From positions 1 through 55,094 of the forward strand of contig CALFVX010000007.1 of NCBI GenBank assembly GCA_937928765.1: DNA of 55,094 bases, read 5' to 3'. The translations under genes and the position numbers were made by a program. The stretch's first letter is position 1, and every line of letters begins with the position of its first letter. Positions 12,769 to 52,900 of the stretch are shown piece after piece. The notes below the pieces were generated by a model. The model was not told the origin of the DNA. It saw only the letters and a program-made list of their open reading frames with translations, and made no database searches. Origin of the DNA: an uncultured Endomicrobiia bacterium (GTDB taxonomy: Bacteria > Elusimicrobiota > Endomicrobiia > DTEH01).

Positions 12769-15552
12769 ATGAATAATATAAAACAAAAAATTATAAATAA
12801 AGAATCAACTGTTGGTGTTATAGGGTTAGGTTATGTTGGGTTGCCCTTAGCAATGCTTATTTCTAACAAAGGTTTTAAAACTTACGGGTTTGATATTGAT
12901 GAAAATAAGGTTAAACTTTTGAAAAATAAAAAAAGTTATATTTCACATATACCTGAAGAAAAAATTAAAGAGTTAAAAAATTTCTATCCAACAAACGATT
13001 TTTCAAAATTAAAGAAGTGTGATGTTATAATTATTTGTGTTCCAACACCAACTACTGAATCAAACGAACCAGACCTTTCTTGTGTAATAAACACAACAAA
13101 GACAATTGCAAAATATCTTCGTAAAGGTCAACTTATTGTTTTAGAAAGTACCACTTATCCAACTACTACCAGAGATGTTGTAAAACCAATCCTTGAAGAG
13201 ACAAACCTTAAATGTGGGAAAGATTTTTATTTAGCATTTTCACCTGAACGAGAAGATCCAGGAAGAAAAGATTTTAATACAGAAACAATACCCAAAGTTG
13301 TCGGTGGTGTGGATAAAACTTCTGGTAAGATTGCGTGTGAGTTTTATTCACAAGTAGTAAAAAAAGTTGTCCCTGTATCATCAGCAGAAGTTGCTGAATC
13401 AACAAAGATGCTTGAGAACACTTTCCGTGCAGTAAATATTGCTTTGGTTAACGAACTTAAAATTCTTTTTGACCGTATGGGAATAGATATATGGGAAGTA
13501 ATAGAAGCGTCTAAAACAAAACCGTTTGGTTTTATGCCGTTTTATCCAGGTCCAGGCTGGGGCGGACATTGTTTTGAAAAAAATCAAACTGTGATTATAA
13601 AAGATTATAAAGAGATAAAATGTATAACAATTGAAGAGTTATATAATTTAATATATAAAAAAATTAATTCACTTAAATTATCTACTGTTGTATCACATAA
13701 GAACTATCACAGAAATGTTAAAGATTTAGAAATCTTAAAACCTGCAAGTGAAATAGAAATACTTTCTTTTGATATTGAAAATCAAAAAATAACTTTTCAG
13801 CCAATAAATTATGTTTCAAAAAGAATTGCGGATGATATTATATCTATAAAAACCCATTATAATTATGAAATAAAAGTAACAAGTTTACATCCTGTATTTG
13901 TATTTGATGGATTAACTAAAGGAATATCATTAAAGTTTGCTAAAGATATAACAAAAAATGATTTTTTGTTGTTACCCAAGAAATTACCTGAGGTGTATAA
14001 AAATTTAAACTATGATCTGATAGAAATGTTGAACAAATTATATCCAGAACTAATGGTTAAATTTAGAGTTAGGCCAATAAACTGTAAATGGAAACAATAT
14101 AAAAAAATTATTTATTCAAATATAGTTGGTAACAAAAAATATGATTTTATAAGAAAAAATTATCTTCCTTTAGTTGAATATATTAAACTTGAAAAATACT
14201 TAAACATAAAAAGAGATGAATTATTAATTTTAAGTGGCAATGGTAATTCTGTTAATTCTTTTAATGCTTTTAATGCTGTCATAACGATAGATAATGATTT
14301 TGCAAGATTGATTGGTTACTATTTAAGCGATGGATGTTTAACTGAAGATAAAAAAACTTTGAAAATAAGATTTGCTTTTAACAAAAATGAAAAGGAGTAT
14401 ATTGAAGACTTAAAAAATATATTGTTAAAGAAAAAAATAAGATTTTCAGAATATGAAGATAAAAAATATAAAACTTATCACATAAAAATTTCTTCGTTTT
14501 TATTAGGGTTGTTTTTTAAACATGTTTTAAATCTTGGCAAAGATTGTTATTCAATGAAAATTCCACAACAGATATTTTTGTCTACTAAGGAATTAAGAAA
14601 AGAGATACTTAAGGGAGTTTTAAGAGCAGATGATGGTGTGTATTTAAATAAAAAAAATAATAAAATATACGAACACAAAGACAACTCTGTAGAAGTAAGT
14701 TTTTTTACTTCTTCTGAAATATTATTTAATCAAATACAACTATTGTTAAGAGAACAAGAAATATTGCCTATAATTAAAAAAAGAAAAGGTCTATTAACCA
14801 TATTTGGCAAAAAAAATATAATTAAACTAAAAAACATATTCTTAGGTAAAAAAGAAAAGTTATTACAGAAATATTTGAATAAAATTTCAAAACAACCAAA
14901 TTATAATTTTGTTATAGAAGATGAAAATTATTTTTATGTAAAAGTTAAAGACATCTACAAAATACATACGACTGAAAAAGTATTTTCTGTTGAAGTAGAT
15001 ACTACAAATAATCTTATTGTTAACAACAGTATTTTAGTGCATAATTGTATTCCGGTGGACCCGTTTTATCTATCTTATATTGCTAAAAAATATGATTTTT
15101 CAACAAGGTTTATAGAACTTGCAGGACAAATAAACATTAGGATGCCGGAATATGTTGTAGAAAAAGTAATTGATGGTTTAAACAAACATAAAAAGACAAT
15201 AAATGGCGCAAAAATTCTTATTTTAGGACTTTCTTATAAAAAAGATATAGGTGATCCACGCGAATCACCGTCGTTTAAGATTATTGAACTTTTAGAACAA
15301 AAAGGTGCAAAGGTTGATTATAATGATCCATATATACCTTATATGCCTAAAATGAGAAAGTTTAACTTTTCTAAAAAATCAGTAAATCTTGATAAAAAAG
15401 TTATAAAAAGGTATAATTGTATAATTATTGCGACAGATCATTCTTGTTATGATTATAAGCTTATAGTTGAAAATGCAAAGTTGGTATTTGATGCAAGAAA
15501 TGTTGTTGAGAAATTTTTAGAAAAAAAGTTTGGTAATGTTATAAAAGTATAA
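12769..15552 (+). CDS. UDP-sugar 6-dehydrogenase (UDP-glucose/GDP-mannose DH family) with intein
   Basis: The precursor is 927 residues and the mature enzyme would be 435. The N-terminal Rossmann part has GVIGLGYVGLPLA (GxGxxG at 19-24), then VPTPTTESNEPDLS, ESTTYPTTT and AFSPEREDPG, and ESTKMLENTFRAVNIALVNE in the middle domain. The family's catalytic motif GGHCIPVDPFYL is split: GGH ends at residue 267 and CIPVDP resumes at 760, with the intein between. After splicing the motif is exact. The C-terminal UDP-binding domain has ILGLSYKKDIGDPRESPS. The enzyme oxidises a UDP- or GDP-hexose (possibly UDP-GlcNAc or UDP-ManNAc, WecC/WbpA-like) to a uronic acid for the glycan locus just upstream. 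AGGAGA (12759-12764) fixes the start. The unspliced precursor lacks a contiguous active site. Confidence 0.93.
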   Translation: MNNIKQKIINKESTVGVIGLGYVGLPLAMLISNKGFKTYGFDIDENKVKLLKNKKSYISHIPEEKIKELKNFYPTNDFSKLKKCDVIIICVPTPTTESNEPDLSCVINTTKTIAKYLRKGQLIVLESTTYPTTTRDVVKPILEETNLKCGKDFYLAFSPEREDPGRKDFNTETIPKVVGGVDKTSGKIACEFYSQVVKKVVPVSSAEVAESTKMLENTFRAVNIALVNELKILFDRMGIDIWEVIEASKTKPFGFMPFYPGPGWGGHCFEKNQTVIIKDYKEIKCITIEELYNLIYKKINSLKLSTVVSHKNYHRNVKDLEILKPASEIEILSFDIENQKITFQPINYVSKRIADDIISIKTHYNYEIKVTSLHPVFVFDGLTKGISLKFAKDITKNDFLLLPKKLPEVYKNLNYDLIEMLNKLYPELMVKFRVRPINCKWKQYKKIIYSNIVGNKKYDFIRKNYLPLVEYIKLEKYLNIKRDELLILSGNGNSVNSFNAFNAVITIDNDFARLIGYYLSDGCLTEDKKTLKIRFAFNKNEKEYIEDLKNILLKKKIRFSEYEDKKYKTYHIKISSFLLGLFFKHVLNLGKDCYSMKIPQQIFLSTKELRKEILKGVLRADDGVYLNKKNNKIYEHKDNSVEVSFFTSSEILFNQIQLLLREQEILPIIKKRKGLLTIFGKKNIIKLKNIFLGKKEKLLQKYLNKISKQPNYNFVIEDENYFYVKVKDIYKIHTTEKVFSVEVDTTNNLIVNNSILVHNCIPVDPFYLSYIAKKYDFSTRFIELAGQINIRMPEYVVEKVIDGLNKHKKTINGAKILILGLSYKKDIGDPRESPSFKIIELLEQKGAKVDYNDPYIPYMPKMRKFNFSKKSVNLDKKVIKRYNCIIIATDHSCYDYKLIVENAKLVFDARNVVEKFLEKKFGNVIKV
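13570..15045 (+). other. Intein (492 aa) with LAGLIDADG homing endonuclease, in nucleotide-sugar dehydrogenase
   Basis: The intein covers residues 268-759 of the precursor. It begins with Cys1 (CFEKNQTVIIKDYKEI, block A) and has the block B motif VTSLHPVF (T371, H374 of the precursor). It carries two dodecapeptides, LIGYYLSDG (514-522) and LKGVLRADDG (614-623), each with the acidic residue of a LAGLIDADG endonuclease. It ends VFSVEVDTTNNLIVNN...ILVHN (blocks F and G) with penultimate His and terminal Asn. The first extein residue after it is Cys760, the dehydrogenase catalytic cysteine. All splicing residues are present, so it should splice, and the endonuclease looks intact. From memory an intein is known in the archaeal UDP-glucose dehydrogenase family (Methanocaldococcus), so an archaeal origin is possible. 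Confidence 0.93.
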
Positions 15553-17230: not shown

Positions 17231-20200
17231 ATGGATATAAGAGAAAAAATATCTAAATGGTTAGATCTTTTAGTAGTAATTTTGTGGTTTTTTGTTTTTG
17301 GTATAGGTGTTGGAATTGTTTTTTATTCAAACGATTTTTCTAATTTTTATTTTTTGAAATTTAAATATCTCTTCTTATATCTTTCTTTAATTTTTATATT
17401 CTTTTCATTAGTTATAAGAGCAAAAATTTTTCTTCCTAATTTAACTATTAAACGATTTTTTTTAATTTTAGCAAGTTTTAGTTTTGGCATTTTTTGGTAT
17501 TTAAAATCTACAACTGAGATTTCTCCTTCACATCTTCTTGCAAAAGAAAATGGAAAGTATAAATTTATTGATACTGACATTTCTGAAGAAACAATAGTTT
17601 ATGGAACAATTGTTTCAGATCCAGATATTAGAGAGGATCATACTAATATTGTAATAAAACCTGACATTATAATTCCTGAGCCTGAAAAATATACAATAGA
17701 ACTTGACACAACAAATGTTAAGGTTATTATTGAAAAAGATTTTGTTTTAAGAGTTATAGATGGAGATACTTTTGAGACAAAACAAGGGCAAAAAGTTCGT
17801 CTTTTAGGTATAAACGCACCAGAGGTTGGTCAACCTAAAGCAGACAAAGCAACAGAATTTTTAAAGAAAAAACTGTTAAATAAAGAAGTTGAGCTTATAA
17901 TTCAAGAGGATTATATTTTTGATATTTATGATAGAGTTTTAGCTGTAGTTTTTGTTGATGAAGAAAATATCAATAAGTTGTTGTTAGAACAAGGACTTGC
18001 AGAAATTTATGACGATCCTAATATTAGAATTATAAAAAAACAGAAATATGGAGAAAAAATTAAGATTAAAGGAAATAGTGGACTTATAAGAGCAAAAGTT
18101 TTGCCTACAATTGGAAATTATTATTTTGAGATGAACTATGGTGATTATATAAAAATAATCTCTCCTTTGATGTTACCAAAAAAAGCGACAAATCCTGCCG
18201 GGTTTGATTATAGAAAATATTTAAATGCAAGAGGAATTTATGCTGTTACTAAAACATTAAGAAATCCACAAGAAATAGAACTTCAAGGTTTAGGAAATTT
18301 AAATATTTTTGTAAAACTTTCATATATACTTAGAAAAAAGTTATTATTATCTATTCGCAAAACAGTGCCTTATCCTCAAAGTGCATTTTTAGGCGGTGTT
18401 ACTTTAGGATACCGTGGTGGTGTTCCACAAAAAATTAGAGAGCAATTTCAAGCAACAGGTGTGGCTCATGTTTTAGCTTTGTCAGGTTTGCATACAGGAT
18501 TTATTGCTGCATTGTTGTTGATTGTTTGTAATATTTTTAAGATAAAATCTTTAGGAAGATTCATTTCAGTAAGTTTTTCGTTGTCTGTTTTTGTTACAAT
18601 GACAGGAGCATCACCAGCAACTGTTCGTGCTGCGTTAATGTTTTGTTTAGGACTTTTTATGTATGATGTTTTGAAATTATCTTTAAGAAATAGTTCAAGA
18701 ATAACTATAATTATTGCTGCAACAATTATTTTATTTTTTAGTCCACAACTTTTACCTGACGCATCTTTTGTTTTATCTTTTATGGCGGTATGGTCGTTAA
18801 TATATGTTAGTCCGTTAGTTGAAAAAATATTGTTGTATTCAAATTCAAAATTTATACATCAGTTTTTAACTTTTCCTTTATTTTCTGTAATTAGTGGTAT
18901 GACAGTTTTATCTTTATTTGGCGGAATTTTGCAAGAAGTTTCTATTTTTAGAAAATTTTTTCCATTTTTTACTTATTTACCATCGTTGGAAAATCTTTTT
19001 CCAAAATGGTTTAATGTAGAGACTTCTCAATGGTTATCAAAAGGTGAGTTTTTCCTTTTGTCTTTAACATTTTATTTTTGTGGAATTTTGATACATTATT
19101 TATATTCGTTATCAGGCAAGATGTTAGTAAGAGATATGATAAGATACCCTTTATTTCGTACTCTAATGAAATTTGTCTCAGCACAAGTAGCAATACAGAT
19201 TGGTATGATGTGGCCATTGTCGAGTGTTTATTTTTATAGATTTCCAATTTCTGGTTTTTATGCAAACTTTTTAGCAATACCAATTATTGGTATAATTGTT
19301 CAACTTGGTTGGATTGCAGGGTTAGTGAGTTTGATTTTTGATTTTTTATCATATTTGTTAGGAATAAAATTTGTTTCTACAATAGGTATAAATATTACTT
19401 TACTTATAAATGCATTTAATACACAACTATGTCAGATGTTTTTAGGTATGGCAAAGACATGGGGTAATTTTGTTCCATATCCTTATGTGGAGATGTTTAG
19501 TAGTAATTCGTTAATTTTATGGTTTTCTTCGTTATTAATTATTATATGGTTTGATAGAATAAAACATTTGGTTGAAATTTATAAAATAAAAGCTGTTATT
19601 TTTTTAAGTTTGATTTTTTGTTTTGGATTATATTATTTTGTTTTTCCACAGATTAAAAAAAATAAAAATGTTGAGATAATATTTTTTGATGTAGGTTTTG
19701 GTAATGCTGTGTTAGTTAAAACGCCTAATAAAAATATTCTTATAGACACAGGTTCACCAGGGCCTTCGGGATGGTCATCAGCAGAATCTGCAGTTGCACC
19801 TACTTTGACAAAATTTGGGATAAAAGAAATAGATGCTCTTATAATTACTTCTGTTAAACCACAATGTGTAGGAGGGGTTATCTATATTTTATCTCATTTT
19901 AAAACAAATAAATTGTATTTACCAAAAAATTTTTTAGATTGTTCTACTCTAACTTATTATGATTTTATTGAAAAACAAAATTTGTGGTATTATATAACAA
20001 ATCCTTATTTATATGAGGCAACTTCTTTATTTGTAGAAAATTATAAGTTGTCAAAATATATAAAAGAGTTTTATGGAGAAATTAAAATTGTTTCTGATAA
20101 AGAAGAAATTGTAATTAACGAATTAATTGATGGTAAAAATTTTAAATTAGTTATTTTATCTTCTGAAAAGATTGTAGACACTTTAGATACTATAGCAGAT

Positions 20201-20605
20201 AACTCTTTATGTGTAAAGATTATATATGGTAATCACTCAGTTTTATTGCCAACTCAATTAGGAGTAAAACTACAAGATAAATTTGTTGTTCATTTTAGTG
20301 ATGTTCTAAAATCAAATATTTTGTTGGTGCCACAAAACGGACATTATAACGCATATAATGAAGCTTTTGTCAAAAAAGTATCTGCAGAAATAGCGGTGTG
20401 TCAATATGGATGGACAAACCAACGTATTGGTTATTTTAATCCTTCATATGTTTTAGCAACACAACAAAAATATCAGTCTTTAAACATAAAATTTTTAAGG
20501 ACAGATTTTGTTGGTTCTGTAAGTTTTGTACTTGATGGAGAAAAATATATTTATACTACAGGCATTTCCGAAGAGGAATACAAGACAAGAATTAATATTG
20601 ATTAA
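17231..20605 (+). CDS. comEC: ComEC/Rec2 DNA-uptake channel with nested SNase domain and degenerate MBL domain
   Basis: An 1124-residue protein, longer than the usual 700-800 for ComEC. N-terminal helices are followed by the DUF4131 region, interrupted at about 171-272 by a staphylococcal-nuclease-like domain. That domain has VIDGDTFETKQGQ (D177, D179), VRLLGINAPEVG (R190, E198) and YDRVLAVVFV (R235). DUF4131 resumes with NYGDYIKIISPLMLPKKA, then NPAGFDYRKYL. The competence domain has SAFLGGVTLGYRGGVP and HVLALSGLHTGFIAALL with many membrane helices. The C-terminal metallo-beta-lactamase-like domain starts FFDVGFGNAVLV (818 on). Its metal motif reads ITSVKPQCVGG (872-882) where THxHxDHxGG is expected, and the later HHGS and TGD motifs are also lost, so that domain is probably inactive. 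The expected role is transport of single-stranded DNA across the inner membrane during transformation. Confidence 0.9.
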   Translation: MDIREKISKWLDLLVVILWFFVFGIGVGIVFYSNDFSNFYFLKFKYLFLYLSLIFIFFSLVIRAKIFLPNLTIKRFFLILASFSFGIFWYLKSTTEISPSHLLAKENGKYKFIDTDISEETIVYGTIVSDPDIREDHTNIVIKPDIIIPEPEKYTIELDTTNVKVIIEKDFVLRVIDGDTFETKQGQKVRLLGINAPEVGQPKADKATEFLKKKLLNKEVELIIQEDYIFDIYDRVLAVVFVDEENINKLLLEQGLAEIYDDPNIRIIKKQKYGEKIKIKGNSGLIRAKVLPTIGNYYFEMNYGDYIKIISPLMLPKKATNPAGFDYRKYLNARGIYAVTKTLRNPQEIELQGLGNLNIFVKLSYILRKKLLLSIRKTVPYPQSAFLGGVTLGYRGGVPQKIREQFQATGVAHVLALSGLHTGFIAALLLIVCNIFKIKSLGRFISVSFSLSVFVTMTGASPATVRAALMFCLGLFMYDVLKLSLRNSSRITIIIAATIILFFSPQLLPDASFVLSFMAVWSLIYVSPLVEKILLYSNSKFIHQFLTFPLFSVISGMTVLSLFGGILQEVSIFRKFFPFFTYLPSLENLFPKWFNVETSQWLSKGEFFLLSLTFYFCGILIHYLYSLSGKMLVRDMIRYPLFRTLMKFVSAQVAIQIGMMWPLSSVYFYRFPISGFYANFLAIPIIGIIVQLGWIAGLVSLIFDFLSYLLGIKFVSTIGINITLLINAFNTQLCQMFLGMAKTWGNFVPYPYVEMFSSNSLILWFSSLLIIIWFDRIKHLVEIYKIKAVIFLSLIFCFGLYYFVFPQIKKNKNVEIIFFDVGFGNAVLVKTPNKNILIDTGSPGPSGWSSAESAVAPTLTKFGIKEIDALIITSVKPQCVGGVIYILSHFKTNKLYLPKNFLDCSTLTYYDFIEKQNLWYYITNPYLYEATSLFVENYKLSKYIKEFYGEIKIVSDKEEIVINELIDGKNFKLVILSSEKIVDTLDTIADNSLCVKIIYGNHSVLLPTQLGVKLQDKFVVHFSDVLKSNILLVPQNGHYNAYNEAFVKKVSAEIAVCQYGWTNQRIGYFNPSYVLATQQKYQSLNIKFLRTDFVGSVSFVLDGEKYIYTTGISEEEYKTRINID

Positions 20606-43678: not shown

Positions 43679-44569
43679 ATGTTTCAAGGCTCAATAGTAG
43701 CGTTAGTTACACCGTTTAAAGGTGGTGAATTAGATGAGAAAAAATTGTGCGAGTTAGTAGAATGGCACATATCCGAAGGGACTGATGCAATCTTACCTTG
43801 TGGGACCACAGGTGAATCACCAACTTTATCATATGAAGAACATAATAGAGTTATAGAACTTGTAGTAAAACAAGCAAGAAGAAGAGTTTTAGTAATTGGT
43901 GGTACAGGAACAAATTCTACCTCTGAAAGTTTACTTTTGTCAGAACATGCGAAGGAAGTTGGCTGCGACGCTTTGTTGTTGATTGTTCCTTATTACAACA
44001 AACCTACTCAAGATGGTATTCTACAACATTTTAAGACTATTGCAGAAAGAATCAAAATACCTGTTGTAGTTTATAACATTCCTGGTAGGACTTCTATAAA
44101 TCTTGAACCACAAACTTTTGTAAAGTTAGTTAAGGAATGTGAATATATTGTAGGAATAAAAGAAGCATCTGGTTCTATTGAACAAGCATCACAAATAATG
44201 TCTTTGCTTATACAAGAGAATCTAGAAGAGAAAATTTCTGTCTTAAGTGGAGATGACAGTATTACATATCCTTTAATGTGCTTAGGTGCTAAGGGTGTGA
44301 TTTCTGTTTTAGCAAATATAATACCTAAAAAAATGCATGTATTTACAGAACTATTGCTTAAAAAAAAGTTTGATGAAGCTAAAAAACTCCATTATGAGCT
44401 ATATCCTTTGATGAAATCAATGTTTATTGAAACAAATCCAATACCTGTAAAAACAGCAATGGAGATGATGAATTTGTGTTCTTCTGAATTGAGATTGCCA
44501 ATGACAAAAATGAAGGATGAAAATAAAGAAAAATTAATAAAAATTTTAAAAAAATATAATTTAATATGA
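43679..44569 (+). CDS. dapA: 4-hydroxy-tetrahydrodipicolinate synthase
   Basis: A 296-residue TIM-barrel aldolase of lysine and diaminopimelate synthesis, joining pyruvate and aspartate semialdehyde. The Schiff-base lysine is K161 in VGIKEASG. LPCGTTGESPTLSYEEH, VPYYNKPTQDGILQHF and VVYNIPGRTS supply the other active-site residues. I start at ATG 43679, behind the strong GGAGGAGG. An upstream in-frame TTG (43661) would place that Shine-Dalgarno inside the gene. It shares ATGA with the next gene and is the first of a tightly packed run. Confidence 0.95.
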   Translation: MFQGSIVALVTPFKGGELDEKKLCELVEWHISEGTDAILPCGTTGESPTLSYEEHNRVIELVVKQARRRVLVIGGTGTNSTSESLLLSEHAKEVGCDALLLIVPYYNKPTQDGILQHFKTIAERIKIPVVVYNIPGRTSINLEPQTFVKLVKECEYIVGIKEASGSIEQASQIMSLLIQENLEEKISVLSGDDSITYPLMCLGAKGVISVLANIIPKKMHVFTELLLKKKFDEAKKLHYELYPLMKSMFIETNPIPVKTAMEMMNLCSSELRLPMTKMKDENKEKLIKILKKYNLI

Positions 44570-45693
44570 GATTATCTGATATTCTTAAAAAATCAATACA
44601 ACAAAAACAAAATTTTTCAATACCACAAAAATCTGATACAGAATCTTTGCTAAACCAACAAAAAATAGAAAATATAATATATTCTGAAGATAAAGTTTAT
44701 AAAGTTGTTGATCAGTCTGAAAAAAAATTGTCAATTTCTGTTGAAGAAGTTTATTCAAAGGGTATAAAACTTTTAAGAAGTTTGTTTAAGGATTTAAATT
44801 CATCTAAGAATAATATTCAAATAAACGACTTGATAGAAGTAGCAAAAGATATAACAAGATTTATTTTGGATAATAACGAAGAAATTTTGTTGTATACATA
44901 TTATTCTACAATTGATAGTTATGTTTATGCACATAGTCTTAATGTAGCAATTTATAGTTGTGTTATTGCAGTAGATAAAAAGATGAAGATAAACGAAATT
45001 GAAGAGATTGTTTTATGTGGATTATTACATGATATAGGTATGGCAAGGATTTTAAATTTTGTAGATAGAAAACATAATTTTTCTTCTAAAGAATTTGAAG
45101 AAGTAAAAAAACATTCTGAATATGTAAAGGAAGAGATTTCAAAGTTAAATTTATCTTTAGAGTTGAGAAATAAAATAACCAATGTTGTTATGAAAGTTCA
45201 CGAACGTATTGATGGGAGTGGTTATCCATTACATCTAACTTCAGAGGACATAGATTTATATACAAAAATAATAAGTATTGTGGATGTCTATGAAGCGTTA
45301 TCTCATCCACGTCCTTATAGAGATAGGATTTTGCCTCATGACGCTATTGTTGCTGTTGTAAAACAAGCGCAGACAGAATTTGATTCTAATTTAGTAAAAA
45401 TTTTTGTAAATAGAATGTCTTTATTCCCTGTAGGAAGTTATGTAAAACTTAACACAGGAGAGATAGCACGAGTTATATCTACAAATCCTTCCTCGCCAGT
45501 AAGACCAAAAGTAAAAATAATTTTAAATTCCGATGGTAATGCTTCCAAGAAAGAAGAGATTATAGATCTTTTAGAACACACAAAGATATCTATTGTAGAA
45601 GCCATAGATGAAACAAAACTTGATATAAAAGATAAGATATTACTTTTGCAGATAAAGACACAACGATGGTGGGTTAAGGATGTTACGATATAG
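44566..45693 (+). CDS. HD-GYP domain phosphodiesterase-like signalling protein
   Basis: A 375-residue soluble protein. The HD-GYP domain covers about 130-290: HSLNVAIYSCVIAVDKK, LLHDIGMARI (H155, D156), VMKVHERIDGSGYP (H212, GYP 219-221), then SIVDVYEALSHPRPYRDR. The metal ligands and GYP are all present, so c-di-GMP hydrolysis is expected. The N-terminal 120 residues and the C-terminal PilZ-like beta stretch (VGSYVKLNTGEIARVIS) are of the kind seen in motility and surface regulators. It overlaps dapA by 4 and the HPr-kinase-like gene by 14 bases, tying it to the peptide-modification cluster. Confidence 0.87.
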   Translation: MRLSDILKKSIQQKQNFSIPQKSDTESLLNQQKIENIIYSEDKVYKVVDQSEKKLSISVEEVYSKGIKLLRSLFKDLNSSKNNIQINDLIEVAKDITRFILDNNEEILLYTYYSTIDSYVYAHSLNVAIYSCVIAVDKKMKINEIEEIVLCGLLHDIGMARILNFVDRKHNFSSKEFEEVKKHSEYVKEEISKLNLSLELRNKITNVVMKVHERIDGSGYPLHLTSEDIDLYTKIISIVDVYEALSHPRPYRDRILPHDAIVAVVKQAQTEFDSNLVKIFVNRMSLFPVGSYVKLNTGEIARVISTNPSSPVRPKVKIILNSDGNASKKEEIIDLLEHTKISIVEAIDETKLDIKDKILLLQIKTQRWWVKDVTI

Positions 45694-46477
45694 TGGAGAG
45701 TTTTATTTTGTTTTAGGTTCCGATATTGTTTTAAAGATTAATTACTTTGATATCTCCAAGAAACTATTAAGCCAAATTAAAAAAAATTTTGATTTTTTCA
45801 TTAAAGATGAATATTATTGCAAAAATTTTTTTGAATTGGAAATATATACAAATAATATTAAAAGATATCTGAAAAACAAAAAAATTTTTAAATTTTTAAG
45901 GAAAGATGTGGAATTGTTTTATGATAATAAAAAATTTTATGGAATAATTTCAGAGAATATCTTTTCTTTTGATACCTTACTAAGAATTTTATCAAGTTTA
46001 GTTATTTTAAAAAATAATGGTATAATCTTGCATTCTTCAAGTATTGTAGAAAATAGAAAATCTATTTTATATGTAGGTCCATCAGGTTTTGGGAAGTCTA
46101 CCATTGCTAAAAAGTGTGAAAGAAATAAAATTTTGACTGATGAATTATCAATTTTATTTTTTGAAAATAACAAATTAATTTCTGTTAGAAGTCCGTTTTG
46201 GGGAGAGCTTAAATATTCATTTTCTAAAAAAGATAGTGTTGAAGAGAAATTTGTTGTAGATAGAATAATGTTTTTGTGTGGATTTGTTAAAAATGATAGG
46301 CCAAAAGTTGAGGTTTTAAGTTTCAAAGAAGCTGTTATATTACTGCTTAAAAATTTGTTTTGGGTTGTAAAAGACGAGATATATAATGAGAGAATTCTAA
46401 GAATAGTTATTAAAATAGCTAAAACAACAAATTGTTATAAATTTTATCCTTTATATGAAATACAGAATAAAACCTAA
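45680..46477 (+). CDS. HPr-kinase-like (HprK-related) P-loop protein of a RiPP-type cluster
   Basis: A 265-residue protein. The first 120 residues are an unassigned lead. A P-loop VGPSGFGKSTIAK (132-144) is followed by LTDELSILFF, the placement of the acidic HprK motif, and VRSPFWGELKYSFSKKDSVE. The set matches HprK-related kinases found beside PqqD-like genes in peptide-modification clusters. In paeninodin-type lasso clusters such kinases phosphorylate the C-terminal serine of the precursor, and the precursor here ends in Ser. It overlaps the PqqD-like gene by 23 bases, implying coupled translation. A regulatory ATPase role is the alternative. Confidence 0.75.
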   Translation: MLRYSGEFYFVLGSDIVLKINYFDISKKLLSQIKKNFDFFIKDEYYCKNFFELEIYTNNIKRYLKNKKIFKFLRKDVELFYDNKKFYGIISENIFSFDTLLRILSSLVILKNNGIILHSSSIVENRKSILYVGPSGFGKSTIAKKCERNKILTDELSILFFENNKLISVRSPFWGELKYSFSKKDSVEEKFVVDRIMFLCGFVKNDRPKVEVLSFKEAVILLLKNLFWVVKDEIYNERILRIVIKIAKTTNCYKFYPLYEIQNKT

Positions 46478-46724
46478 CCTTGCGTATAGAAAAATTTTTG
46501 ACGAGATATACATTGTCGATAGTAAAAACTCTTATTTACATAAGATAAATGAAGTTGGAAGTTTTATTTTTGAAAAACTGAAAGAAGGTTTAAATGAAGA
46601 TGAAATTATTGATGAATTAGTAAAAACTTATGATGTTGAGATTGAGGTTGCAAAAAGTGATTATAAAAATTTTATAGAAGAAATTTTTTTAAAAGGTTTA
46701 ATAGAAAAGGATGCAAAAAAATAA
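46455..46724 (+). CDS. PqqD-like peptide-binding (RRE) protein
   Basis: An 89-residue protein with RKIFDEIYIVDSKNSYLHKI, NEVGSFIFEKLKEGLNEDEI and LVKTYDVEIEVAKSDYKNF ending LKGLIEKD. This is the PqqD fold: short beta strands, the NxxGxxIxxxL helix, an acidic EI turn and an L..KGLI end. PqqD-type domains recognise leader peptides and hand them to a radical SAM enzyme. Its gene overlaps the next, a radical SAM enzyme, by 14 bases, which is the expected partner. Confidence 0.85.
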   Translation: MKYRIKPNLAYRKIFDEIYIVDSKNSYLHKINEVGSFIFEKLKEGLNEDEIIDELVKTYDVEIEVAKSDYKNFIEEIFLKGLIEKDAKK

Positions 46725-47727
46725 AAAAAGTTTAGTTGATGTCCTTTTCAATATTTCTTATTGCAAGAAAATACCTTTGTATACTTTAATAGAGCTAACT
46801 TATAGATGTAATTTTCTATGTAAACACTGCTACATACCAGAATCTTATCGTAAAAAAATATTAGAATTAACTTCAGAAAAGATTATTTCTCTTATTGAAG
46901 AGATATATTCTTTAGGTGGAATTTATTTAATTTTTAGTGGTGGAGAACCTTTATTAAGAAAAGATATTTTTGAGTTAATAAAGTTTGCTAAGAAATTAAA
47001 TTTTTTTGTTGTTTTATTTACTAACGGTAGTTTGTTAGATGAATCTGTAATAGAAAAATTAAAAATCTGTGGTATAGACAAGGTTGAGATAAGTTTGTAT
47101 GGAAATAAAAAATATCATCAAGAATTTGTAGGTAAGAATGGTATTTATGAAAAGATAATAGAAGCCATTAAGTTGTTGAAGAAAAAAGATATTAATGTAT
47201 GTATAAAATCAGTAATTACAAACCAAAATTTTAAACAAAGAGAATTTTTAGAATCTTTAGCGAGAAGTATTGGGATAGAATACAAGTTTGATTTTGTTAT
47301 TGCTCCTAAAAATAACGGTGATTCTTCTGCTATAGCTTTAATGTTAAATGATAAAGAAATATACAGCTTGCTAAAGGAATATAATTATGAAAAAGAAAAA
47401 ACTAATCTTTTGTCAAAAGTTATCTGTTCTGCTGGAATTAACATTGTAGCGATAAATCCTTATGGTGATGTTTTTCCTTGTATTCAACTGCCTTATAGAT
47501 TAGGTAATATTAAAGAAAAAAGATTTAAAGATATATGGGAAAATGATAGTTTTAGGGAAAAATTTATTCAAATCAAAAATTATAAAGAATGTAGAAAATG
47601 CGATTTATTATTTTGGTGCAACCGTTGTCCTGGTTTAAGTTTTGTTGAAAATAAAAATTTATATAGTTGTTCAAGTATAACCAAGAAAGTTGCGTCGATT
47701 TCTAAAAAAATATATGTTTTTAGTTGA
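46711..47727 (+). CDS. Radical SAM/SPASM peptide-maturation enzyme
   Basis: A 338-residue enzyme. The radical SAM motif LTYRCNFLCKHCYIPE has C33, C37 and C40, GGIYLIFSGGEPLLRKDIF binds SAM, and DKVEISLYG follows. The C-terminal SPASM part has AINPYGDVFPCIQL, then RLGNIKEKRFKDIW, and a cysteine cluster CRKCDLLFWCNRCPG, for auxiliary [4Fe-4S] clusters. Enzymes of this build install cross-links (for example thioether or C-C) in ribosomal peptides. It overlaps the PqqD-like gene, and a candidate 48-residue precursor follows 101 bases later. The -35 box of that precursor's promoter overlaps this gene's stop codon. Confidence 0.9.
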   Translation: MQKNKKSLVDVLFNISYCKKIPLYTLIELTYRCNFLCKHCYIPESYRKKILELTSEKIISLIEEIYSLGGIYLIFSGGEPLLRKDIFELIKFAKKLNFFVVLFTNGSLLDESVIEKLKICGIDKVEISLYGNKKYHQEFVGKNGIYEKIIEAIKLLKKKDINVCIKSVITNQNFKQREFLESLARSIGIEYKFDFVIAPKNNGDSSAIALMLNDKEIYSLLKEYNYEKEKTNLLSKVICSAGINIVAINPYGDVFPCIQLPYRLGNIKEKRFKDIWENDSFREKFIQIKNYKECRKCDLLFWCNRCPGLSFVENKNLYSCSSITKKVASISKKIYVFS

Positions 47728-47752
47728 CATAGAACAACGATTTAAGTATATT
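47724..47752 (+). promoter_or_regulatory. Strong sigma-70-type promoter for the precursor peptide
   Basis: TTGACA (47724-47729, perfect) and TATATT (47747-47752, 5 of 6) lie exactly 17 bases apart. The -35 overlaps the radical SAM stop codon TGA (47725-47727). Transcription would start near 47759, leaving a leader of about 70 bases. It is the best promoter I found in the window and would let the peptide be made in excess over its enzymes. Confidence 0.65.
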
Positions 47753-47828
47753 TTTTATTTGATGATAAAAATTAAAAATAGTTTAAAAATTTATTAGTAA
47801 AGGAAGGTAAGGTTTTATTTATTGCACA

Positions 47829-47975
47829 ATGAAAAAGGATAAAAAGAAAAAGTATAAAAAACCAAAAATTATTTCTGAAAAAATTTTTGAACAAGCAGCG
47901 CTTGCCTGTGGGAAATGCATTTCTGGCAATCCGGTATTCAAGAGCGGTTGTAGGTATGCTCCAAGGTTGTCATAA
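47829..47975 (+). CDS. Candidate RiPP precursor peptide, 48 aa, three Cys
   Basis: A short gene with a very basic start (MKKDKKKKYKKPKIISEK), a leader-like IFEQAALACGKC and a core ISGNPVFKSGCRYAPRLS. Cysteines are at 27, 30 and 41, glycines at 28, 33 and 40, and the last residue is Ser48. Basic lead, KPKI(I)SE-F-Q-ALACGKC pattern, position directly after a PqqD/radical SAM pair and an own promoter all fit a ribosomally made, post-translationally modified peptide. The ATG lacks a close ribosome binding site. GGAAGG (47802-47807) is about 21 bases away and nearer to an in-frame ATT at 47817, so the true start could be 4 codons upstream. Cleavage point and modification are unknown. Confidence 0.75.
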   Translation: MKKDKKKKYKKPKIISEKIFEQAALACGKCISGNPVFKSGCRYAPRLS

Positions 47976-48001
47976 ATAATTTTGAAAAAGATATAAATTT
48001 T

Positions 48002-48352
48002 ATGAATTTATTGTATGTAAGACTTAAAGGTGGTTGTATGCGGCCACTGTTAATAGACGAACAGGTGGTATTGATTTTACCGCTGTATAAAAAAGTTAAA
48101 CCTGGAGATGTGGTTTTATACAGACTTGAGGGTCAATTGTTCCTACACAGGGTAGTTAAACTCTCTTCAAAAAGTATGTTTGTTGAAGATGACAGTGGTA
48201 TTACTTGCAGAGTTGTTGTTCCATTGAAAGATGTTTTAGGTATTTATCCTACTATTTTATCTGGTTTTTTAGGATATATATATCACATCTTAGTGAGAAC
48301 AGTTTATATAACTTTTAGGTCGGTGAAAAAATTGTTTTTACAAAAAATATAA
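48002..48352 (+). CDS. S26 (signal peptidase/SipW-like) peptidase with Cys for Ser
   Basis: A 116-residue protein. LKGGCMRPLLIDEQVVLILP aligns with the signal peptidase box (SMxPxLxxGDxVxV) but has Cys12 in place of the nucleophilic serine. KPGDVVLYRLEGQLFLHRVV holds His49, the general base of SipW/archaeal-type enzymes. FVEDDSGITCRVVVPLKDVLGIYP matches the end of the catalytic core. One C-terminal hydrophobic segment (about 82-108) and a basic tail would anchor it. Its place right after the precursor makes it the likely leader or signal protease, or a dead regulator if Cys12 is not reactive. The next gene starts 4 bases later. Confidence 0.75.
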   Translation: MNLLYVRLKGGCMRPLLIDEQVVLILPLYKKVKPGDVVLYRLEGQLFLHRVVKLSSKSMFVEDDSGITCRVVVPLKDVLGIYPTILSGFLGYIYHILVRTVYITFRSVKKLFLQKI

Positions 48353-48356
48353 CTTT

Positions 48357-49193
48357 ATGCAACAGAGTTCTTCATATCTGTCCTATTGGGGACTTAAAGA
48401 ATTACCGTTTTCTACAACACCTGATGTAAGATATTTTTATTTTTCAAAAGAACATGAAGAAGCATTTGTCAGACTTAAATTTGTGATAGAACACAAAAAA
48501 CCTTTGTGTATGATAACAGGTGAGTATGGTATTGGCAAGACACTTCTTTGCAATTTCCTTATTTCTAAACTTTCAGCGACAAACTATCAGTTTGTATATT
48601 TAGGCAACCCGTTTGTCCCTAAGGAAGAACTAGTACATAATTTAGTTTTATTTTTAACCCGAGTGGGTGTGGGGGGTATAGAGAAACTTCCAACTAAATA
48701 TACAGAGTTGGTCCAGTTGTTTGTTGAAATAGTAAATCGTAACTTCCAAATTGGTAAACATACAGTGATATTTTTTGACGAGGCACACCTTGTTGAAGAT
48801 ATAAAAGTTTTTGAACAACTCAGAGTTTTGTTAAACAGTGCTGGTCAAAATACATCTTCTTTAAGTATAATTTTGTTAGGACAAACCGAGTTAAGAGAAA
48901 AGATTGCTTCTTTAGGACAGTTTAAGTCAAGAATTACATATCATTACCATATAAAAAATCTTGATAAAGAAGAGGTGGCAGAATATATAAAACACAGGTT
49001 ACTTGTAGCAGGCCATCCTACTGGCGAGTTGTTTTGCAAGTTCGCAGTGGAAGAAATTTATAATCTAACTTTGGGTTTGCCAAGGACAATAAATAATATA
49101 TGTGATATAAGTTTAATGCTTGGTATGGCTAAAAGTGTGGATAAAATTAATAAAGAAATAGTGTTAGAAGCGAAAGAAGAAGTTTTGTTGTGA
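48357..49193 (+). CDS. ExeA/MshM-like AAA+ ATPase
   Basis: A 278-residue ATPase starting YLSYWGLKELPFSTTPDVRY, with FYFSKEHEEAFVRLKFVIEH, Walker A ITGEYGIGKTLLCNFL and Walker B VIFFDEAHLVED, then SIILLGQTELREKI and GLPRTINNICDISLMLGM. This is the ExeA/GspA family, whose members insert or assemble type II secretion or MSHA pilus parts using peptidoglycan-linked partners, but the C-terminal peptidoglycan-binding domain is absent here. It follows the peptidase by 4 bases, so it may be cotranscribed with the peptide cluster. No secretion-system genes are nearby. Confidence 0.85.
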   Translation: MQQSSSYLSYWGLKELPFSTTPDVRYFYFSKEHEEAFVRLKFVIEHKKPLCMITGEYGIGKTLLCNFLISKLSATNYQFVYLGNPFVPKEELVHNLVLFLTRVGVGGIEKLPTKYTELVQLFVEIVNRNFQIGKHTVIFFDEAHLVEDIKVFEQLRVLLNSAGQNTSSLSIILLGQTELREKIASLGQFKSRITYHYHIKNLDKEEVAEYIKHRLLVAGHPTGELFCKFAVEEIYNLTLGLPRTINNICDISLMLGMAKSVDKINKEIVLEAKEEVLL

Positions 49194-49238: not shown

Positions 49239-49914
49239 ATGAGTGAGACTAAACAAAGGAAGTTAAAGCATTATTTTGAAAAAGGGGCAGTCTATTTTAT
49301 TACTTCTGTCACAAAGGATAGAAAAGAGATATTTAATCACATCATAACAGCGCGGTTTTTAGCAATAACTATAGCATATCACAAATTCATTCTGAATTTC
49401 TCGTTATTCGGATATGTCATAATGCCTGACCATTTTCATCTGTTATTACAACTCGACGATAAATACCCGTTATCAATTATTATGAAAGGTATTAAAGGTA
49501 ACTTCGCAAGGAAATATAATGAATTCTTAGATCAAAAATTTACCCAAAACACACTACTCGGTGATCACGGTAGCATTGGTAACAAAGGTAATGTCGGTAA
49601 TGTCGGTAATATCGGCAATATCGGTAGAGGGAGAGGGAGAGGGGGATAATGGAGGACAAGGTGGTGAAAAGATTGAAGGTGTTAAGAGACATCCTTTAGG
49701 ACATTTATATTTACCTGTTTGGCAGAGGGAGTATTATGAACATATTATTCGTGATGAGAAGGATTTTATTGAAAAGTTGAATTATATTCATAACAATCCG
49801 GTAAAGAAGGGTATAGTAAATTCGCCAGCAGATTATGAGTTTTCAAGTTACCATCAATGGTATGGTGAAACAAGGCAGAATATACAGATACCAATAGACA
49901 AGATTATGATTTGA
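49239..49914 (+). pseudogene. REP-associated tyrosine transposase (RAYT, Y1/IS200-like), frameshifted
   Basis: The first frame (49239-49649) gives GAVYFITSVTKDRKEIF and YVIMPDHFHLLLQLDD, with the HUH metal motif HFH, then KGIKGNFARKYNEFL. After a stop, the +1 frame gives LPVWQREYYEHIIRDEKDFI, with the catalytic Tyr region, and YIHNNPVKKGIVNSPADYEF. The join falls in a tandem-repeat tract (49569-49645) of 9-base and 6-base units ending GGGGG. Deleting one G there restores one frame of about 224 residues. It is either a broken gene, a slippage-switched gene or an assembly error. GTAG palindromes flank it in inverted orientation, as for RAYT/REP systems. Its function would be to nick and mobilise REP DNA. 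Confidence 0.85.
49569..49643 (+). repeat. Tandem repeat tract inside the RAYT gene
   Basis: Seven 9-base units of the type GGTAATRTC (49569-49631, encoding Gly-X-X triplets) run into three AGAGGG units (49626-49643) and a 5-G run (49641-49645). The 9- and 6-base units keep the frame when copy number changes, but the G run does not. It lies in the linker between the HUH half and the tyrosine half of the transposase. Confidence 0.8.
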
Positions 49915-49981: not shown

Positions 49982-52900
49982 ATGGTTAAAAAAGTTGCGA
50001 TAGTTTCAATAGTTACAATAATTTTAGTAGTTACAGAAGTTTTTTCTGCTACACGGATAAAGACGGTTGAATGGAATTTTGGGTCGTATTATTCTGCAAC
50101 AGATATTGCTTCTGGTTCTGGTTGGACTGCACCGTATATAATTGTGAACTTGCCTGAGTCAGGTGTCGTAATAAGAAATGCTTATGTAGAGATTGAGTAT
50201 TTATCTTCAGCAGGTACTGCTGCTGATACTACAAATATTGATATTTATTTCAATGCAGGAACACAAGCAACTGATATAGTTGATAACATCACAGGCAATC
50301 AAGTGCCGGATTCTTCCGGTGAGTCAAACCTGTTTGTAGCGAGAGCAGTTGTAACTTCAAAAATTACTTCCTGGAATAACCAACCATATTCGTTAAGATT
50401 TGTTTCAGTTGGTTCACCACACAATATGCATTCTGCAAAACTTTATATTACTTACGAATATGATGATACTTCACCAACACAGATAAAAACTGTGCGCTTC
50501 CCTTTATATTCTTCTTCAACAGATGGCACTTATGGTATAGCATCAACTGGAGGGCAACAATCATCTCCTGCATCAATCCCGTTTAAATATATTGCTGAAA
50601 TACCTGAATCAGGGACAACAATAAGGCAGGTCTGGTTTGAAATTCGTGGCCTTCGTCAGAGTGGTGCTACAACTACTGACGGGTCAATAAATGTTAACAT
50701 TTCAGGCTATGCTGCTGAACCAACAATGAACTTAGACGGTTCACAGATTGATACTTATAGGTTTAGATATTTATCTTCAACTGGCACACCGGCAGGCTTC
50801 GCTATTAATACTTTACAGACGGTATATGTGAACCTTTCAGGAAATGCAAACACAAATGTTTTAGGTGGCGAGGTTGTTATAACTTACGAATATCCATCAA
50901 ATGCATCAACAAAACTTAAAACAATCTCATACTTTTTTGCACAATCAACAGGAACTGTTGGCAGTGTTACAAGTTTCTCGGTCCCTGTTTATCTTAATGA
51001 AAGTGGAATAACAATAAAAAGAATTTATGCGCTCATTTCCGGTTCTTATGATTCCACTACGGTTGGTAATTTTACTGTTAACTCTTCAATTGCAGGAAAT
51101 TCTTTAACACAAAGAAATTACGCACTTGTAGTAACTGCAATACAAATTTCAGGGTTTGAACTTTATCACGACCTCTCTGAAGGAAAAAATTACTTAGTAA
51201 ACGGTGCAACTGTTACAATCTCTTGGCCGAACAATTTAGCAGCTCTTGGTGGTTGCGGTGTTGAAATAATTATCACATATACTTATACTTCCGAAAACAA
51301 ATACACAGAATTTTACCGTATCTTTGCAGGACAAACTGCAAACGAAGTTGCCTCCGGTAGTGTTTATAATTATACTGCTAATATATTTTTCCCTAATCCT
51401 GAGTATCCTGTTGGAAGAAAATTACTCAGAACTTCTTGGTTAAGAGGAGATTTTTTAGAAGGCGATGCTACTGTTACTCAGGATCCAACAACTACAATGA
51501 ATGTTAACTCTGCTACTGGCAAAGCACAGGTTGTTAAACATCAGTCAACTACGGAAAATTTCCAAACAACAGCATTATATGATTTCACTGACAGAATCAC
51601 ACCGTCATCTACAACATTTACTGCAAACTATACTTTAACAGGTGACCCGTTCAATGTCAGTGGAGTTGCTTCAATTGTTTACGAATACTATCCTGCACCG
51701 TCAACACCGACTGCACTTGCACAATACCGTTCAGACGGTGTTACTGTTATTTCAACAGGTGGCTGGACCAATAGTAGTTCTGTAGTATTAAAATTTAATA
51801 TGTTTTCAAAGATTGCTGATACACTAACACCAGTAGTAGAAGTAAAACCTATCGGGACAGCATTTAACGAAACAAACCTTTCCACAGGAACTGCGGTTTA
51901 TTATCCTGGCAGTGGTGTAGTAGTTGGCTCTGTAACAGTTTCAGGTCTTAGTGATGGTACAACATACCACTGGCGTGCAAGAGTTGTCTCACCAAATGGT
52001 TCATCACTCTGGCAAAGTTTTGGTGGAAATTTAGAGACAGAGATAGATTTTGGTTGTGATTTAAGTTCACCAACAGTAAGTTTAACAAATCCATTAAATG
52101 GTTACACAACAAACCAGATGACAATAAACTTTACCTGGTCAGGGACAGAGTATCCAACAGGGTCAAATTCTGGTATTAAACAATATGAGTTTCAAGTTTC
52201 AACAGTTCCAAGTTTCAGTACAATTTATTATTCTTCAACAACTGTTTCTTCAACTGTTTCTACTACATTATCGCAAGGAACTTATTATTGGCGTGTCCGT
52301 GCTGAAGACAATGCTGGCAATATTGGTAATTGGTCAAATGTATGGTCAATTTTGGTTGATACCACTTCACCTTCGGTACCAGTTTTACAATCACCGATAA
52401 ACAATTACGCAACGAACCAGATTACATTAACATTTTCATGGTCAGTTTCCGACGATAGTGGTTTTCGTGGCGGGTCTGGAATAAGTGGTTATGAATTTTA
52501 CATTTCAACCACAAGTGATTTTACTGTTTTTACATCTTCCGGGTTCACATCTTCTACTTCGTTAGTTGTTTCTCTTTATTCTTCAATTTTTTATTGGCGT
52601 GTCCGTGCAAAAGATGGTGCTTTTAATTTTAGCAATTGGTCAGATATATGGTCAGTTTTAGTTGACACTGTACCGCCACAGGTGCCATCATTAGTTTCAC
52701 CATTAGAAGATTTTGCTACAAATTATGCAATAATAAATTTTGTATGGTCGGAAGTTTCTGACCCTTATCCATCTTCAGGGATAAAATATTACAAATTACA
52801 GGTTTCAAGTTCACAAAATTTTAGTTTAGTAAACTATTCAACTTTTACAACTCAGACAAACATTCAGGTTGGGTTAAGTTTTGAGTCTACATATTACTGG

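Follow-up and report, generated by a model that had tools for sequence, protein, structure and literature searches.

The window analysed here, a whole stretch of 55,094 nucleotides of contig CALFVX010000007.1 (assembly GCA_937928765.1) from an uncultured Endomicrobiia bacterium, carries a compact set of five genes that almost certainly encodes a pathway for a ribosomally synthesized and post-translationally modified peptide (RiPP). All five lie in order on the forward strand: K, a kinase of the HprK/PEPCK fold (265 aa, 45680–46477); D, a discrete RiPP recognition element (RRE) of the PqqD type (89 aa, 46455–46724); R, a radical SAM/SPASM maturase (338 aa, 46711–47727); A, the precursor peptide (48 aa, 47829–47975); and S26, an archaeal/ER-type signal-peptidase-like protease (116 aa, 48002–48352). 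The open reading frames bear out the five ordered genes of a preliminary description of this DNA as well as the overlap of the first three, with K and D sharing 23 bp and D and R 14 bp. That description did not include a gene directly 5′ of K, which encodes a 375-aa HD-domain (HD-GYP-like) protein on the same strand (44566–45693; PF13487, 6e-19). The last 14 bp of this HD gene are shared with the start of K, and transcription of the unit therefore probably begins at the HD gene or earlier. It had also assigned A its own promoter, of which this much stands: 5′ of A lies a good match to the sigma-70 consensus (TTGACA-17-TATATT, 11/12, 47724–47752, forward strand), the best of 50, and it is a consensus match and no more. 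The interval between R and A gave no Rfam match to a structured RNA.

The precursor consists of a leader, MKKDKKKKYKKPKIISEKIFEQ, followed by the predicted 26-aa mature peptide, AALACGKCISGNPVFKSGCRYAPRLS (47895–47972, forward strand), which contains an LxCxKC motif, a third Cys and a terminal Ser. Counted over 66 distinct aligned variants, the leader motif YxxP, which is the predicted RRE-binding motif (YKKP here, codons 9–12, 47853–47864), occurs in 66/66, and FE[T/Q] stands ahead of AALACGKC in most. Conservation extends through the core, with LxCxKC in 65 of the 66 variants, the third Cys in every one and the C-terminal Ser again in 65, and the residue just before this Ser takes 12 identities. 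Distant members read LGCNKC or LACAKC, and because they keep just L, C, K and C while the neighbouring residues drift, these four positions can be regarded as the fixed part of the core. The sole exception to both the Lys and the Ser is the third A copy of one Armatimonadota genome (G400), in which the two residues are lost together. This copy (locus L170, contig C17) has no listed propeller gene alongside and is possibly a decaying paralogue. Among close relatives, differences in the precursor fall mostly on third codon positions. In the literature covered, which leaves out most subscription journals and is weak evidence for that reason, the core ALACGKC is named nowhere and such a pathway in Elusimicrobia is not described.

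A profile of A, searched against 84,980 named species at one genome per species, identified 47 loci, which comprise 42 of Elusimicrobia/Endomicrobia type, one from Armatimonadota and four labelled just “bacterium”. S26 lies beside A at 46/47 loci, D at 45/47, R at 42/47 and K at 41/47, and several of the missing neighbours fall at contig ends. The profile and gene-context search proposed in the preliminary description has therefore recovered homologues of the 48-residue peptide that are conserved beside the enzymes. Searched in its own right, K was found in 15 of 60 relatives' genomes; it stands with HD, D and R in 12 of the neighbourhoods examined, 10 of which also contain A and S26. Two gene orders occur, HD-K-D-R-A-S26 and K-D-A-S26-R. 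HD lies directly 5′ of K in Endomicrobia-like and several other families and is not in that position in the Elusimicrobiia-type order. The genes 5′ of K in L045, L049, L062 and about 20 other Elusimicrobiia loci encode prepilin-like proteins (N_methyl), one of which carries carboxypeptidase-regulatory and lamin-tail domains, and a conserved pilus-assembly-like protein of about 430 aa. At the level of whole genomes, A is present in 54/341 Elusimicrobiota genomes and 25/100 genera, in one copy each with one exception, and a small-genome family of the same class (f3) gave no A match among the genomes listed. Since conservation of the precursor, the enzymes and the gene order extends across the phylum, and since the precursor shows the bias towards third codon positions, the gene set is more than a chance assembly. 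This joint conservation of precursor and enzymes lends strong support to the proposal of a RiPP pathway in which a PqqD-type protein binds the leader and a radical SAM enzyme is the maturase.

The single Armatimonadota locus, L050, provided the lead to a second phylum, in which A reaches E ≤ 0.001 in 12/291 genomes and is clear in 11 of these. We rejected the possibility that L050 is a mis-binned contig, because R, K and two copies of A are present in its genome and because the family is clearly represented in 11 genomes of the phylum. For the most part the genes are scattered here: G519–G527 have S26-D-A together, with no K or R in the flanks examined, and G341 and G400 have S26-K-D at one place and A elsewhere. 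K is nevertheless present in 11/11 of the genomes with a clear A. R exceeds 320 bits in 11 Armatimonadota genomes, 10 of which bear A, and the next-best R scores 294 bits; the exceptions are G528, with R and no A, and G523, with A and no R. This co-occurrence of A, K and R in the absence of linkage is good evidence of joint function. It bears directly on the suggestion that the five genes are conserved as neighbours yet share no pathway, A being no substrate of R or K. Vertical descent can preserve gene neighbourhoods, but the two gene orders and the unlinked co-occurrence in Armatimonadota leave this explanation a very slight probability. More distant relatives of R, at 270–294 bits, are found in Armatimonadota genomes without a clear A (G561:C61, G561:C442, G563:C72 and G587:C33) and probably belong to sister pathways with other precursors.

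The kinase K matches HprK_rel_A weakly in sequence (3e-5, 23 bits), and a sequence profile compared with solved structures returned essentially P-loop matches only, so that its identity required a fold comparison. Its AlphaFold model (pLDDT 91.6) resembles PEPCK (6e-8) and HprK/P (5e-4) in Foldseek. PEPCK and HprK/P are two arms of one kinase superfamily, and the predicted fold upholds the initial naming of K as an HprK-like kinase. Residues R102, H118, G138-K139 and D154-E155 are invariant in the alignment. The His, the P-loop Lys and the Asp-Glu pair are kept in both phyla; the pair is D-E and not D-D, whereas PadeK needs H-K-D-D. The remaining enzymes differ in how readily they can be named. 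D is a firm PqqD protein by Pfam (PF05402, 2.3e-12), is matched by lasso PqqD models at 1e-7 and has two invariant residues, R12 and D69. R contains the radical SAM and SPASM domains (PF04055, 2e-28; PF13186, 1e-13), and both the CxxxCxxC motif (C33, C37 and C40) and the SPASM cysteines (C239, C257, C294, C297, C303 and C306) are conserved. Its closest solved structures are SkfB (4e-34), PqqE (6e-32), CteB (6e-25) and SuiB (2e-16). S26 falls under the Pfam cut-off and matches TIGR02228 at 7e-6 and, as a profile, SEC11A/C at 3e-6; its model (pLDDT 93.8) has a long C-terminal helix (residues 88–115) and the LexA/signal-peptidase fold, for which the scores are modest (1.2e-3 at best). The putative catalytic residues are C12, H49 and D64, and homologues in the alignment keep Ser or Cys, His and Asp. 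The earlier label “Cys-type” is thus right for the close relatives of the window protein and does not extend to most homologues, which have Ser at that position. We assume that the Cys of the window protein is an active nucleophile, and S26 is predicted to be a leader peptidase similar to LppS.

The nearest characterised relatives of the system are the linear polyphosphorylated peptides (LPPs), a relation that the preliminary description lacked. In LPP pathways, a discrete RRE binds YxxP, a motif known to be bound by lasso and LPP RREs, and an HprK-like kinase phosphorylates a Ser of the core (PMC13381572, Nat Commun 2026). Assisted by the RRE, a signal peptidase of archaeal type (S29, H68, D93) cleaves the leader behind F-E-T, and the precursors have highly variable C-termini and their phosphosite at core Ser3 (PMC13381572). 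Both systems combine a discrete RRE, an HprK-like kinase and an archaeal-type signal peptidase, and the YxxP and FET of the LPP leader correspond to YxKP…FE[T/Q] here, with a Y-to-T spacing two residues shorter. LPP pathways, however, have no radical SAM enzyme, and their cores vary, whereas the core described here is near-invariant and has three cysteines and a C-terminal Ser. No open reading frame for an LPP-type NTP transferase or an MsbA-like transporter was found in the window between 43 and 55 kb, and none recurs beside the cluster in relatives. With a radical SAM enzyme present, transporter and NTP transferase absent and the Ser elsewhere, LPP membership was rejected. A looser variant, in which the genes form an LPP-like phosphopeptide system with phosphorylation as the main event and R in a minor or regulatory role, draws on the fit of K, D, S26 and the leader motif to LPP. 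We consider it improbable, since R is present in 42/47 loci and follows A in Armatimonadota even when unlinked, the invariant core residues are cysteines and not a Ser of the core N-terminus, and LPP precursor C-termini are highly variable.

A second point of comparison is given by the kinase-bearing lasso peptide clusters, to which the locus had been likened from the start. PadeK, ThcoK, SyanK and PsmK phosphorylate a C-terminal Ser (PMC9266682). Paeninodin-type clusters likewise place an HprK-like kinase beside a PqqD-type RRE and share the C-terminal Ser, so that the comparison was well aimed and the near-invariant Ser of A corresponds to a PadeK-type site. In place of the B2 protease and the asparagine-synthetase-like cyclase, the locus contains a radical SAM enzyme and S26; neither lasso enzyme is apparent among the window open reading frames around the cluster or recurrent in the neighbourhoods, as had been claimed, and classification as a lasso cluster was rejected on these grounds. 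The system would resemble LPP pathways in how the leader is recognised and removed and PadeK clusters in phosphorylating the terminus, would add a radical SAM step to both, and by the features tested is a member of neither.

Other RiPP classes share single components. SynChlorMet (SCM) clusters encode HprK-related (ScmC), PqqD-like (ScmD) and radical SAM/SPASM (ScmE, ScmF) proteins, and K matches ScmC in 26/35 members (best 1e-10). They differ in having two radical SAM enzymes where there is one here, S26 belongs to the present system, the precursor matches no SCM model, and the window proteins score well below the curated cut-offs (ScmC 14.9/125, ScmD 18.8/100 and ScmE/ScmF 93.1/400 bits). 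Sacti- and ranthipeptide systems (SkfB, AlbA, CteB/SCIFF) also use a SPASM maturase on a Cys-bearing core, which in SCIFF is likewise strongly conserved, but the present system has a separate RRE and a kinase, and its thioether is a prediction only. The SCIFF model matches 4/25 precursors weakly (0.0066), and the precursor is not SCIFF. PQQ and mycofactocin pathways pair a PqqD-type protein with a SPASM radical SAM enzyme on a small conserved precursor, and propeller proteins use PQQ; the precursor is a different one here, no further pqq or mft genes are seen in the cluster, and the window R reaches 123/381 bits for PqqE and 117/265 bits for MftC. SynChlorMet, ACGX, GeoRSP, SCIFF, PQQ and mycofactocin were all rejected as being under their curated cut-offs. 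R of the window lies under the cut-off of every NCBIfam model listed and the window precursor has no match, in keeping with the earlier statement that the precursor fits no named class: it matches no characterised class exactly, and the NCBIfam models listed all stay under cut-off. It represents a previously unnamed RiPP family built from known parts.

From the motifs, the catalytic residues and these parallels we infer the following steps. D would bind the YxxP motif of the A leader and hand A to the enzymes; by analogy with the RREs described above, binding to this motif is highly probable. R would then place a radical SAM modification on the LxCxKC…C core. That it modifies the Cys core in some manner is very likely, and the most likely product is one or more thioether cross-links from the conserved cysteines, for which we see about an even chance; a Lys- or carbon-based link is possible instead. 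K would phosphorylate the C-terminal Ser, a role that the PadeK-type kinases make reasonably likely. Finally, S26 would cut behind FE[T/Q] and free a peptide of about 26 aa, which is likely in view of the LPP peptidase, if a little less so than the binding of YxxP by D.

The genes downstream suggest where the peptide might act. A giant secreted protein, which was missing from the preliminary description, starts at 49982 on the forward strand and runs off the contig end (49982–55093, at least 1704 aa), with the N-terminal domain RIKTVEWNFGSYY... and Ig/FN3-like repeats. This N-terminal domain was found in 25 genomes, 23 of which contain A (genus-level odds ratio 157, p = 3e-12, kinship ignored), usually at a distance of 0.4–4 kb. 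G010 was rejected as a true case of a giant without A: its contig stops at S26, where A would come next, and A has probably been cut off. At up to 10,458 aa, the complete proteins of relatives carry a lamin-tail domain and PQQ_2/BamB-type propeller repeats at the C-terminus. S26 is fused to the giant N-terminus in several genomes, and in G005 the giant keeps A and S26 as neighbours, with K-D-R located on a different contig. At L112/L074, the S26 domain forms the N-terminus of a 904-aa open reading frame whose C-terminal part looks secreted and is unlike the usual giant.

When 14 genomes were searched with PF13360 (PQQ_2), the top hit fell either within the giant close to A or in the open reading frame directly behind it in 11/11 Elusimicrobiota except the window genome (G000), and Elusimicrobiia have a second giant type (F8) at the same place, then a propeller too. 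Separate secreted PQQ_2 proteins take this position in Armatimonadota. They adjoin A at 2/2 loci in G341 and 2/3 in G400, the K locus directly in G341 and G400 and with a DprA-like gene between in G519–G527, and R in G399. By a simple estimate, the probability of such adjacency by chance is about 1e-4 in G341 and 3e-4 in G400, two genomes that look related and are not independent. The propeller is thus linked to the pathway in at least three separate arrangements, namely at the giant C-terminus, as a stand-alone protein by A or K, and by R. This link is new. We infer from it that the peptide may have an extracytoplasmic role shared with the secreted PQQ-like beta-propeller protein encoded nearby, giant here and smaller in Armatimonadota, and we moderately favour such a functional partnership. 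The reading as a whole, a dedicated four-enzyme pathway that makes the peptide and supplies a secreted propeller protein, appears to us probable to a similar, modest degree.

These observations also bear on two further functions that could be proposed for the peptide. It might be a secreted antimicrobial, a sactipeptide- or ranthipeptide-like bacteriocin with an incidental giant neighbour, as its small, Cys-rich product, the resemblance of R to the thioether-peptide makers SkfB and CteB and the weak SCIFF match of some precursors (0.0066) would suggest. Bacteriocin cores, however, usually diversify, and this one is near-identical across two phyla, kept across families and single-copy in nearly all A-bearing Elusimicrobiota; no exporter or immunity gene recurs alongside, and the linkage to giants and propellers survives rearrangements. 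The fixed core in particular disfavours an antibiotic role, and we regard this explanation as unlikely. A pheromone that controls the adjacent surface or pilus genes, perhaps through HD-domain or Rrf2 regulators, would account for the overlap of the HD gene with K and for an Rrf2-type gene 3′ of R in about 15 Elusimicrobiia loci. The HD and Rrf2 genes are nonetheless each confined to one gene order, HD is not found beside the dispersed Armatimonadota genes, and sequences of this kind usually diverge between lineages, which makes a signalling role doubtful and slightly less probable still than an antimicrobial one. The fixed core, the single copy and the linkage to giant propeller-bearing proteins point instead to a structural or cofactor role, and the peptide looks like a fixed component or cofactor of the cell surface rather than an antibiotic.

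Several points weigh against a pathway that supplies propeller proteins. The genes, their conservation and co-occurrence, the conserved catalytic residues, the predicted folds of K and S26 and the linkage to propeller genes are observed, and each chemical step and the partnership are predictions from them. R scores far under every named maturase family, so its chemistry is not readable from a family name, and the phospho-Ser of LPPs lies near the core N-terminus (S3), for which a core starting AALACGKC offers no counterpart. The cluster lacks an exporter, and no N-terminal anchor is obvious in S26. As for the propeller link, it was spotted post hoc among genomes that are not independent of one another, and propellers of the PQQ_2 type are common, with 15–17 loci in G341/G400. 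A itself is not beside a propeller in the G519 clade, where the DprA-like gene separates propeller and K, and the window genome has no PF13360 match, its giant gene being cut by the contig end. BamB-type propellers are not known to bind PQQ, and a PQQ_2 match by itself is therefore uninformative about a ligand.

Two genes lie between the cluster and the giant gene. The first encodes a 278-aa ExeA/PEP-CTERM-type ATPase (48357–49193, forward strand; TIGR03015, 2e-45, under its cut-off), which adjoins the cluster in close relatives only and is thus probably outside the pathway. The second is an IS200/Y1-type transposase-like gene (49239–49914, forward strand; PF01797) that is apparently split across two frames near a short repetitive stretch. 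Elsewhere in the window, a UDP-glucose/GDP-mannose dehydrogenase (12769–15552, forward strand) is split by an intein that bears a LAGLIDADG-like domain (PF14890, 3e-19; PF14528, 9e-9), and a ComEC-type competence protein (17231–20605, forward strand) has a staphylococcal-nuclease-like domain inserted into its N-terminal part (PF00565, 4e-13; PF03772, 3e-30), which may place a nuclease within the channel for DNA uptake.

Taken together, these results describe an unnamed RiPP family with a nearly fixed core in two poorly cultured phyla. We found no system that joins a radical SAM core modification with HprK-like phosphorylation, and here the two would be accompanied by a recently described type of leader peptidase related to signal peptidases. 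PQQ is itself derived from a peptide by way of a PqqD/radical SAM pair and is held by a propeller. On this model, the mature Cys/Lys phosphopeptide might be a prosthetic group or bound cofactor of the PQQ-like beta-propellers on secreted proteins, an idea that we put forward as speculative and rather unlikely as it stands. If true, it would add a new peptide-derived cofactor parallel to PQQ, which would serve the giant proteins of Elusimicrobiota and the separate propeller proteins of Armatimonadota.

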